A stretch of 64,000 bases of DNA from assembly GCF_900167205.1 (NCBI RefSeq), contig NZ_FUWW01000004.1:62001-126000 (forward strand), read 5' to 3'. The stretch comes from Eubacterium coprostanoligenes. GTDB taxonomy: Bacteria > Bacillota > Clostridia > Oscillospirales > Acutalibacteraceae. The notes beneath the pieces are model-generated. The model was not told the DNA's origin. It searched no databases and saw nothing but the letters and a program-made list of their open reading frames with translations. Shown in pieces: positions 59,118 through 62,128 of this stretch. A program made the position numbers and the translations under genes. How positions within the stretch are numbered: position 1 is the stretch's first letter; each line of letters begins with the position of its first letter.

Positions 59118-59154
59118 AATCCCTAAAGCGTTGTTGCTTTAGGGATTGTTTTTT
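59118..59154. terminator. Bidirectional terminator between lepA and the SCIFF maturase
   Basis: AATCCCTAAAGC (59118-59129) pairs perfectly with GCTTTAGGGATT (59136-59147), then GTTTTTT. Convergent genes end on both sides. Confidence 0.88.
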
Positions 59155-60547
59155 AGTATTCAACTTTTAAGTTTTCTTCGGCTTCTGCCACTTTTAGCAT
59201 AATCGCACATTCAATTCTCTTTCTGTGGAGTTCACAGCCGAATTCGTAAACGCCGTTTACACTGCCTGTGGTGTGGTATGCGTTTGCGGCACATCCGCCC
59301 GAGCAGTACAGCTTTGCAAAACAGTCCTTACACTCTTTGTGAGAATAGACATTACATTCTTGGAATTGCTCAAGCACATTCGGATTTGTAACTCCGTCAT
59401 AAATGTTGCCGAGCTTGAACTTGTCATCACCGACAAATTGGTGGCAAGGGAAGAGGTCACCGCTTGGAGTAACCGCCATATATTCCGTACCCACTCCGCA
59501 ACCGCTTACTCTCTTGACGATGCAAGGTCCGTGGTCGAGGTCAATCATGTAATGATAAAATGTAAAGCCGTTTCCGCTTCTGTATCGTTTGAGCATTTCG
59601 TTTGCAAGAATTTGGTATTGTTCTTTGAGAATAGGCAAGTCGCTTTCCCTGAGTGCCCACGGCTCTTTAGGGTCGCACACAACAGGCTCAACCGATAATT
59701 CCTTAAAACCGAGGTCTGCCATATGCAGCAAATCGTTTGAAAAGTCGGTATTGAAGTGAGTGTATGTGCCTCTCATATAATAGTTCTTTTGCTTTCTGCT
59801 GTCGGCAAATTTTTTGAACTTGTCAATGATTAAATCATAACTGCCTTTGCCGTTTGGAGTTTTGCGGAGGTTGTCGTGAACATTCTTTCTACCGTCAAGC
59901 GAAAGCACAACATTGCTCATTTCCTTGTTGCAAAAGTCGATTACTTCATCGTCAACAAGCACACCGTTTGTTGTAAGAGTAAAGCGGAAATTTTTGTCAA
60001 ATTTCTTTTCCTGCTCTCTGCCGTATTTGACAAGCTCTTTGCACACATCCCAGTTGAGAAGCGGTTCTCCGCCGAAAAAGTCAACTTCAAGATTCTTTCT
60101 TGTTCCACTTTGCTCAATCAAAAAGTCGAGTGCTCTTTTGCCGACTTCAAGACTCATCAAGCCTTTGTCAGCACCGCCGTATTCGCCTTTGCCTGCAAAA
60201 CAGTATTCGCAGTTGAGGTTGCATCCGTGTGCAACATGAAGGCAAATGGCTTTGATTACACCTTGACGCTTTTTGAATTCCTTTGCGGTTGCTTCAAAAG
60301 TGTCCTCTGCAAAAAGTCTGCCGTCTGCAATAAGGCTCTCAATATCCTCAAAACATTCCTCAATATCCTCGTCGGTTACATCTGCTCTGTCGGAATATTT
60401 GTCAAGAATATATGCCTTGATTTCGTCTTTTGTATTTTCTTTGTATCGGGTGATAATATCATATGCAACCTCGTCAACGCTGTGAACACATCCGCTGTTT
60501 TGGTCAAGAATGATATTGTATCCGTTCATTTTGTATGCGTGTATCAT
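59153..60547 (-). CDS. SCIFF-peptide radical SAM maturase (CteB-like)
   Basis: A 464-residue radical SAM-SPASM enzyme that makes thioether cross-links in a SCIFF-type peptide (ranthipeptide). The N-terminal 90 residues form the RRE-like leader-binding region. The SAM cluster is C-x3-C-x2-C in HVAHGCNLNCEYCFAGKG near residue 110. The SPASM region holds two auxiliary clusters: SGCGVG, FPCHQF and CKDCFAKLYCSGGCAANAYH, with a final Cys in FGCELHRKR. Start ATG by homology of MIHAYKMNGYNIILDQNSG. The precursor gene lies 77 bases upstream on the same strand, separated by a terminator hairpin. Confidence 0.93.
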   Translation of the reverse strand: MIHAYKMNGYNIILDQNSGCVHSVDEVAYDIITRYKENTKDEIKAYILDKYSDRADVTDEDIEECFEDIESLIADGRLFAEDTFEATAKEFKKRQGVIKAICLHVAHGCNLNCEYCFAGKGEYGGADKGLMSLEVGKRALDFLIEQSGTRKNLEVDFFGGEPLLNWDVCKELVKYGREQEKKFDKNFRFTLTTNGVLVDDEVIDFCNKEMSNVVLSLDGRKNVHDNLRKTPNGKGSYDLIIDKFKKFADSRKQKNYYMRGTYTHFNTDFSNDLLHMADLGFKELSVEPVVCDPKEPWALRESDLPILKEQYQILANEMLKRYRSGNGFTFYHYMIDLDHGPCIVKRVSGCGVGTEYMAVTPSGDLFPCHQFVGDDKFKLGNIYDGVTNPNVLEQFQECNVYSHKECKDCFAKLYCSGGCAANAYHTTGSVNGVYEFGCELHRKRIECAIMLKVAEAEENLKVEY

Positions 60548-60581: not shown

Positions 60582-60611
60582 GAAAAACGGTAGCCTAAAA
60601 TCAGCTACCGT
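60582..60611 (-). terminator. Intrinsic terminator between SCIFF and its maturase
   Basis: On the minus strand ACGGTAGC (60611-60604) pairs with GCTACCGT (60594-60587), followed by TTTTTC. It would terminate most transcripts after the precursor and let some reach the maturase. Confidence 0.75.
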
Positions 60612-60624
60612 AAGTCCGTTGTAA

Positions 60625-60771
60625 TTACTTCTTAAGTTGCTCGCACTGTTGGTTTGCTACTGAGCAAGAAGTTTTTGATGCTGATTGGCAAGATGTCTGG
60701 CATTCACCGCAGCCGCCCTTCTTAGCTGATTCGCAAAGATTTCTTGAGCTTAAAGTATTAATTCTCTTCAT
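60625..60771 (-). CDS. SCIFF-type (ranthipeptide) precursor with altered cross-link residues
   Basis: A 48-residue peptide with six Cys at 13, 21, 24, 28, 36 and 43. Its first 20 residues, MKRINTLSSRNLCESAKKGG, contain the leader; the core continues CGECQTSCQSASKTSCSVAN and QQCEQLKK. This matches the SCIFF (six Cys in forty-five) family. From memory the family consensus has Cys at 32 and Thr at 37 (QSACKTSCTV), the pair joined in CteA of Clostridium thermocellum; here both are Ser, and Cys13 is additional. GAGGTG lies five bases before the ATG. It has a consensus promoter, and the maturase follows. Confidence 0.92.
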   Translation of the reverse strand: MKRINTLSSRNLCESAKKGGCGECQTSCQSASKTSCSVANQQCEQLKK

Positions 60772-60803: not shown

Positions 60804-60832
60804 ATTATAGATTATAAACCCGCTTTTGTCAA
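60804..60832 (-). promoter_or_regulatory. Consensus promoter of the SCIFF precursor
   Basis: On the minus strand TTGACA (60832-60827) and TATAAT (60809-60804) are separated by exactly 17 bases. The -35 lies inside the 3' end of the upstream decarboxylase gene. Confidence 0.75.
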
Positions 60833-62128
60833 TATTTTATTGGGAAGTTGACCGCTGTCGGATATAATATTCACTCCGTCAGCCATTGCATTTTTGATGT
60901 AATCAACCGCTTCTGCCGTGATAATTTCGTTTGGAGCAATTATCGGAATGTCGGGCGGATAGGCATAAACAAATTCGTTTGATACCTTTCCGACACATTC
61001 GTTTGTGTCCGTCAAAATTCCGTTGTCTGCAATAGAAACAACGATTTCGTTCCTGTCAACAGGTGGCTTTCTAATCGGCTTTGCAGGTGAGTATTCAAGT
61101 TTGGCATCGGTTTCAAGAACAGCCATTTTGAGCAGAGCCAATCCCTCGTCTGTGTCGCCGATGGTTGCCATAAGCAAAATGTAATTTTGCGATACCGCTT
61201 CGGGTTCGATTTTGTATTTGTTTCTGAAAATATCTGCAAGTTCGCTTCCTGTGATATTTGTGCTTGCACAGGACAAAACTATTTTTGAAATGTCGTCATT
61301 GTATTGAATTTTTAAATTGTCTGTTTCAACAAGCCTTAAATCACAAAGTTTTTCGTAAAATTTGCCAAATTCGTTTCGGCAATTCAGCACATAATCACAG
61401 CAGATGTCAATGCTGTTCATCAGCACATAGCTTGGCGAGGTCGTTTGAAAAATATCCATATATCGCTTGACTTTGTCGACGTATTTCTCGTTAAAAACAT
61501 TCACAACCGATGTTTGAGTGAGTGACGGCAAAGTTTTGTGAAGTGAAGATATAACAATATCGCCGCTCGGATATTTGGGAAAGTATGGCATACCAAAATG
61601 CGCACCGTGTGCCGCATCAATTATCAGCGGTATATCGCATTTGATGTCGGACACAAACCCCTCATATGTAGGTGATGTTATGATAAACGCTTTTGCCTCC
61701 GGATTGCGGCTTATCGCACTGTTTACGGCGTCTTGTTTAAGGTTTGTGTAGTAACCGTTTGTAAGGTCGTATTGAGGTTCTATAAATATGATTTTCAGTT
61801 TCAACAGCATACAGGCATTGTACACGCTTTTGTGGCAGTTGCGTGCAACAATCACGGTGCCACCCTCGTTGCACACAGCAAAAATTGCGGCAAGTATACC
61901 ACCGCTCGAACCGTTAACACTTATGAATGAACGCTCGCTTTTGTATATGCTTTTGAGTTTGTCCTCGGTGTTTTTTATCACTCCGCTTGGGGAATGTAAA
62001 TTGTCAAAGTCGTCAATTTCGGTTATGTCTATCTCACTACCCAAAATGCCGAATTTGTCGTTTCGTTTGTGCCCCGGCATATGAAACGGATATGTGTCAA
62101 TGTCTTTTAATTTATCGTGTAAGTTCAA
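60812..62128 (-). CDS. Orn/Lys/Arg decarboxylase-family PLP enzyme
   Basis: A 438-residue fold-type I PLP protein. The N terminus has FHMPGHKRN and DITEIDDFDNLHSPSG; the cofactor lysine is in SSLHKTLPSLTQT near residue 214, preceded by IIDAAHGAHFG (Asp for the pyridine ring). The C-terminal domain ends in YPPDIPIIAPNE, typical of arginine/lysine/ornithine decarboxylases of the short YaaO/SpeA-like type. It may make polyamine precursors; the exact amino acid is not predictable. It is cotranscribed with, and overlaps by 17 bases, the membrane protein upstream. Confidence 0.88.
   Translation of the reverse strand: MNLHDKLKDIDTYPFHMPGHKRNDKFGILGSEIDITEIDDFDNLHSPSGVIKNTEDKLKSIYKSERSFISVNGSSGGILAAIFAVCNEGGTVIVARNCHKSVYNACMLLKLKIIFIEPQYDLTNGYYTNLKQDAVNSAISRNPEAKAFIITSPTYEGFVSDIKCDIPLIIDAAHGAHFGMPYFPKYPSGDIVISSLHKTLPSLTQTSVVNVFNEKYVDKVKRYMDIFQTTSPSYVLMNSIDICCDYVLNCRNEFGKFYEKLCDLRLVETDNLKIQYNDDISKIVLSCASTNITGSELADIFRNKYKIEPEAVSQNYILLMATIGDTDEGLALLKMAVLETDAKLEYSPAKPIRKPPVDRNEIVVSIADNGILTDTNECVGKVSNEFVYAYPPDIPIIAPNEIITAEAVDYIKNAMADGVNIISDSGQLPNKILTKAGL

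Follow-up and report, generated by a model that had tools for sequence, protein, structure and literature searches.

The comparisons reported here establish that the SCIFF precursor gene scfA, which lies within the window (the whole 64,000-nucleotide stretch of Eubacterium coprostanoligenes DNA analysed), encodes a peptide with serine at both positions 32 and 37, and that the Ser32 subclass to which it belongs is, judged by its genes, conserved, fixed throughout the genus and accompanied by a complete ScfB maturase. We put at about 95 % the probability that scfA is a functional SCIFF precursor of a real, distinct and old subclass, here called class III. Both rings reported for the studied peptide CteA use Cys32, so that neither is possible in the window peptide, and in Ser32 SCIFFs a ring, if there is one, must be formed in another way. 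The literature searched, of which coverage was incomplete, contained no mention of a Ser32 subclass or of a Ser32 SCIFF product, and either may already be published.

The scfA reading frame (60625-60771, minus strand; 147 bases) translates into 48 residues, MKRINTLSSRNLCESAKKGGCGECQTSCQSASKTSCSVANQQCEQLKK, and because the peptide scores above the cut-offs of both TIGR03973 (74.9 bits, cut-off 50, E 3.3e-21) and PF13165 (76.7 bits, cut-off 27) it is not a chance ORF. It is the only SCIFF match in its genome (1.82 Mb, 99% complete), and its cysteines at 13, 21, 24, 28, 36 and 43 give the six in about 45 residues to which the family name refers; the first-pass annotation had correctly recorded a 48-residue SCIFF precursor with Ser32, Ser37 and six cysteines in total. 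The numbering of CteA fits scfA: in PMC8326336, which also describes a CteA fragment of residues 1 to 21 whose Cys21 contacts the enzyme, Cys32 is the fourth cysteine of CteA, and this cysteine falls at the position of Ser32. Codon 32 (60676-60678; this and the following codons are on the minus strand), which encodes the donor cysteine in studied SCIFFs, and codon 37 (60661-60663), a threonine in CteA, are both TCA. Thr34 (60670-60672), to which the ring was reported to close in E. coli, is kept; Cys28 (60688-60690) is a candidate alternative donor and Cys36 (60664-60666) a second one, and Cys13 (60733-60735) lies in the leader and is common among relatives. Since TCA is two bases away from either cysteine codon, a change from Cys to Ser32 by a single-base error is unworkable.

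The rings reported for CteA are Cys32-Thr37 in vitro and Cys32-Thr34 on co-expression in E. coli (PMC8172795, PMC8326336), the gamma carbon being the linked atom in the co-expression work (PMC8172795). The Cys32-Thr34 ring had been overlooked by the first-pass annotation, and its acceptor is the one of the two that scfA retains. CteA/CteB (thermocellin) and Tte1186a/Tte1186 have the maturase family TIGR03974 in common with the window and are placed in the same precursor family by reviews; compared with CteA and Tte1186a, the window peptide keeps Thr34 but carries serine at their Cys32 and Thr37. With the Cys32 donor and the Thr37 acceptor both absent, the earlier argument that any thioether would have to use another cysteine is supported. 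By model and by partner scfA is a SCIFF, with ring residues that, on its sequence, depart from the CteA pattern; we class it among the SCIFF precursors as a subclass of its own, and as a putative ranthipeptide.

Across relatives we distinguished class I (Cys32/Thr37), class II (Cys32/Gly37) and class III (Ser32 with Ser37 or Ala37). In a phylum-wide sample 313 of 398 genomes had a match, 311 above the cut-off and the window's genome among them, and 128 other SCIFFs (the 30 best and roughly one per family, leaving out the sub-threshold G203) were read: 122 were Cys32/Thr37 and six Cys32/Gly37, and Ser32 occurred in 0/128. In the window's own family (93 of 120 genomes with a match), all 90 precursors from outside the genus were read, comprising eight of class III, a degenerate Ser32 row (L270), one with Val32 (L269) and 80 with Cys32. 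In the family to which Mobilibacterium timonense belongs (Anaerovoracaceae, according to the L084 record), 66 of 81 genomes had a match, and one peptide from each gave 21 of class III, 28 of class II and 17 of class I. After addition of the best 80 loci from a named genome collection, a best-match list biased toward the Ser32 type, the combined set held 430 loci with 400 distinct core DNAs, which are enriched in relatives and do not reflect natural frequencies: 185 class I, 106 class II, 107 class III and two others. Ser37 was present in 103 of the class III cores and Ala37 in four, and 23 of the 107 had at most five cysteines in total. Among the same 400 cores none combined Cys32 with a residue 37 other than Thr or Gly.

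These counts alter the earlier picture of how unusual the peptide is. The statement that Cys and Thr are nearly universal in SCIFFs is right for Cys32 (128/128 phylum-wide) and less so for Thr37 (122/128; 106 of the 400 cores are Cys32/Gly37), and the peptide is no isolated departure, class III accounting for 107 of the 400 relative-enriched cores and for 21 of 66 peptides in a second family. The alignment that had been proposed shows position 32 to be other than Cys in 109 of these 400 cores (Ser in 108, Val in one), as against 0/128 phylum-wide. Two things had been named beforehand as making the observation ordinary; many Ser32/Ser37 precursors were indeed found, and sequencing error is contradicted by the agreement of 66/66 genus rows. 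Nor is Cys13 new, as had been claimed: an equivalent is present in 60/106 Cys32/Gly37 cores and 69/107 Ser32 cores, and, having much the same frequency in the class that keeps Cys32, it was rejected as a compensating cysteine. Class II SCIFFs, whose labels include Oscillospiraceae, Acutalibacteraceae and Lachnospiraceae, are the nearest relatives of class III in maturase trees and often share both Cys13 and the NLCESAKKGGC leader; unlike the window peptide they keep Cys32, and with Gly37 only the Thr34 ring of the two reported is possible in them. One class II locus, L365, carries a single 93-aa ORF (1498-1779) containing two complete tandem SCIFF precursors, both Cys32/Gly37, with the second leader included.

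Within the genus, 71 of 80 genomes carried a SCIFF (73 matches), and Ser32 and Thr34 were present in all 66 of the 73 that were read, the window included; residue 37 was Ser in 64 and Ala in two. Ser32 was encoded by AGC in 56, TCA in six and AGT in four, that is, by both serine codon boxes. The first 62 genus precursors had 62 distinct core DNAs (residues 21 to 43) encoding four core peptides, with a mean pS of 0.641 against a pN of 0.0108 (pN/pS about 0.02), which indicates strong purifying selection on the core. A core frozen along its whole length shows, from these alignments, a working peptide, and implies no special role of Ser32 alone. One same-genus locus, L333, has Gly for Cys at residue 21 and no Cys13; its match starts at a contig edge.

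The partner gene scfB (59153-60547, minus strand; 464 aa), 77 nt downstream of scfA, encodes a radical SAM/SPASM maturase that scores 743 bits against TIGR03974 (cut-off 425), is the one match above the cut-off in its genome (two weak ones lie below) and has CteB (5WGG) as its best PDB match at 569.6 bits. Similarity to the anaerobic sulfatase-maturating enzyme structures 4K36/4K37 is weak (about 53 bits), and the PapB-type model NF047865 gives 281 bits, under its cut-off of 340. As first annotated, the maturase is intact, with a full set of 11 cysteines in its CX3CX2C motif and SPASM region, which, from that motif and the alignment to CteB, we take to be cluster ligands. None of the 11 is missing from any representative whose sequence extends that far (143 class I, 69 class II and 66 class III), and ScfB stands beside the precursor in 60/61 same-genus loci. 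Two maturase residues were considered as explanations of Ser32 and rejected. Gln95 occurs in 90/94 Ser32 maturases and 0/69 Gly37 representatives, but is absent from L075, L288, L060 and L076 and present in the Cys32/Thr37 row L111; Val352, two residues past the conserved Cys350, occurs in 66/66 class III representatives yet also in ten Cys32/Gly37 maturases. Both may be only clade markers.

Upstream of scfA lies a promoter-like site (TTGACA-17-TATAAT; 60804-60832, minus strand) matching 12/12 consensus bases. Because such sites are no more frequent in the region than expected (nine against a shuffled mean of 8.9), the argument for a promoter draws on the complete match, its location and its conservation, a site scoring 11 or 12 of 12 being present within 110 nt upstream in 55/59 same-genus loci, compared with 12/169 class I loci. 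The site overlaps the end of an Orn/Lys/Arg-decarboxylase-like gene (60812-62128, minus strand; PF01276) directly upstream of scfA, a homologue of which was seen in 32/34 long Cys32/Gly37 loci and 13/20 long Ser32 loci (at least 6 kb, L031-L110). Between scfA and scfB a terminator-like hairpin (60587-60611, minus strand; -16.2 kcal/mol, z -4.73) is predicted, in a region with five such sites against a shuffled mean of 3.8; a simple scan recovers it in 46/60 same-genus loci. The scfA gene is probably well expressed, and a promoter followed by a hairpin before scfB is the arrangement that we infer would supply peptide in excess over enzyme.

The Ser32 type is best read, from the maturase trees, as having one old origin, with L270 a separate, degenerate case; this is the simpler reading. 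Classes II and III group in one supported clade that adjoins some of the Cys32/Thr37 rows, and free trees require three to five changes at residue 32. Trees constrained to keep the Ser32 rows together were not rejected: with 41 rows the held tree lay 12.6 log-units below the free one (p-AU 0.365), removal of L075 put it 17.1 log-units ahead (p 0.689), and an enlarged set that omitted the long rows L075, L288, L274 and L279 put it 49.9 log-units ahead (p 0.906). The free trees had first pointed to several independent origins of Ser32 with a coupled change at 37, a reading that was dropped because these tests did not reject a single Ser32 clade. Since class III, as one clade, comes close to one evolutionary event, the pairing of residues 32 and 37 is statistically weak, and an independent-pairs count (2/2 on supported branches, p 0.5) carries no weight.

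Turning to the residues that might form a ring, Cys24, Cys28 and Cys43 are present in every one of the 400 distinct cores (the row parser was anchored on Cys28, an anchor that every locus with a SCIFF hit satisfied), Cys21 everywhere except in L333, and Ser35 in 399. Residue 34 is Thr in 397 and Val in three, both side chains having a gamma carbon; Val, in L273, L283 and L270, is the sole alternative seen there. Cys36 is present in 106/107 class III cores, the exception, L421, having Ser. It is replaced in ten loci, of which seven keep Cys32 and three (L421, L269 and L270) lack both. The seven are five distant SCIFFs with Leu or Ile (KTSL/KTSI; L182, L196, L199, L242 and L254), L163 with Ala and L271 with Glu. 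In L421 a precursor with Ser32, Ser36 and Ser37 (286-447), and so with no cysteine two residues away from Thr34 on either side, is followed by an intact ScfB of 470 aa (481-1893). L269 and L270 look degenerate at 32 to 37 (VKTSSA and SKVDNT), each with a complete ScfB; all three are single assemblies, and their maturases retain the 11 cysteines.

We suggest that in class III ScfB would still form a non-alpha thioether at the gamma carbon of Thr34, with another cysteine, Cys28 or Cys36, replacing Cys32 as donor, in which case Cys32 would be a donor abandoned by part of the family and not a universal one. For such a ring we would offer somewhat less than even odds. Cys28 would be the first choice, although taken singly an improbable one, and is preferred because it is never lost, even in the three relatives without both Cys32 and Cys36; the invariance of Cys28 and Thr34 is by itself no mark of ring residues, since the core is frozen throughout. 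Slightly behind, as second choice, comes Cys36, which lies two residues away from Thr34 on the other side. In the comparison of classes with two degenerate cores set aside, Cys36 was lost only where Cys32 was kept (7/168 class I against 0/169 class II and III; Fisher p 0.007, uncorrected for relatedness), and Cys36 as sole replacement donor is weakened by the Ser32/Ser36 peptide of L421. A shift of donor is plausible by analogy with PapA/PapB (freyrasin), a radical SAM/SPASM ranthipeptide system of another family, whose maturase is described as flexible in orientation and in Cys-to-acceptor spacing, accepting Cys-Xn-Asp with n of 0 to 6 (PMC9413430); the Cys28-Thr34 spacing, n = 5, would lie inside that range. 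PapA/PapB differs from the window system in its family model (NF047865) and in its Asp/Glu acceptors. Against the proposed ring, the other cysteines were, according to reviews, not seen to act in the studied SCIFFs.

The constancy of Cys21, Cys24, Cys28 and Cys43 (with one exception at Cys21), set beside variation at 32, 36 and 37, would suit a different view, namely that the main native modification of SCIFFs is something other than the Cys32 ring and that all classes share one or more rings on these four cysteines, missed both in vitro and in E. coli, class III merely being without an accessory Cys32 ring. Work in vitro and work in E. coli gave different rings, and a review regards the participation of other cysteines as open (PMC8326336). 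Outside class III, however, Cys32 is nearly always kept (128/128 phylum-wide) and so matters there, and we regard shared rings of this kind as improbable, about on a par with Cys28 taken singly as donor. Class III might alternatively go without any thioether, ScfB only binding or otherwise altering a peptide that works as a free cysteine-rich one, through thiol, disulfide or metal chemistry. Both reported rings are indeed impossible with Ser32, and a single thioether was found in studied SCIFFs despite their six cysteines, as reported in PMC8326336, but the maturase keeps its cluster-type cysteines, which a binding-only role would not need, and adjoins the precursor in nearly every genus locus; this we consider unlikely.

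A little less likely again is that Ser32 itself acts chemically, as ether oxygen donor to Thr34, as acceptor for Cys28 (a Cys-X3-Ser like the Cys-X3-Asp of PapB) or as a residue oxidised in the manner of anaerobic sulfatase maturases, enzymes that act on Cys or Ser. The near-exclusive choice of Ser where Cys32 is missing, its encoding by two codon boxes and the weak similarity of ScfB to 4K36/4K37 speak for such chemistry; Ser35 is equally frozen, so Ser32 need not be special, and we know of no precedent in the SCIFF family. Its most specific form, in which class III ScfB would close an ether ring from the Ser32 oxygen to the gamma carbon of Thr34, as an oxygen counterpart of a ranthipeptide, is very improbable; if true, the product would likewise be lighter by 2 Da and could pass for a thioether. 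Sequencing error, or a decaying and non-functional precursor, has a negligible share: the relatives L269 and L270 do look degenerate at 32 to 37, but the agreement of the genus rows, the low pN/pS, the two-base distance to Cys and the conserved promoter-like site all stand against it.

Finally, the SCIFF ring is disputed between two acceptors, Thr34 and Thr37, and the family offers three natural states of the ring residues (Cys32/Thr37, Cys32/Gly37 and Ser32/Ser37), each with its own maturase, which makes both the native ring and the need for Cys32 directly testable. A possible source of native peptide is Mobilibacterium timonense, a named strain whose SCIFF is of class III (L084).
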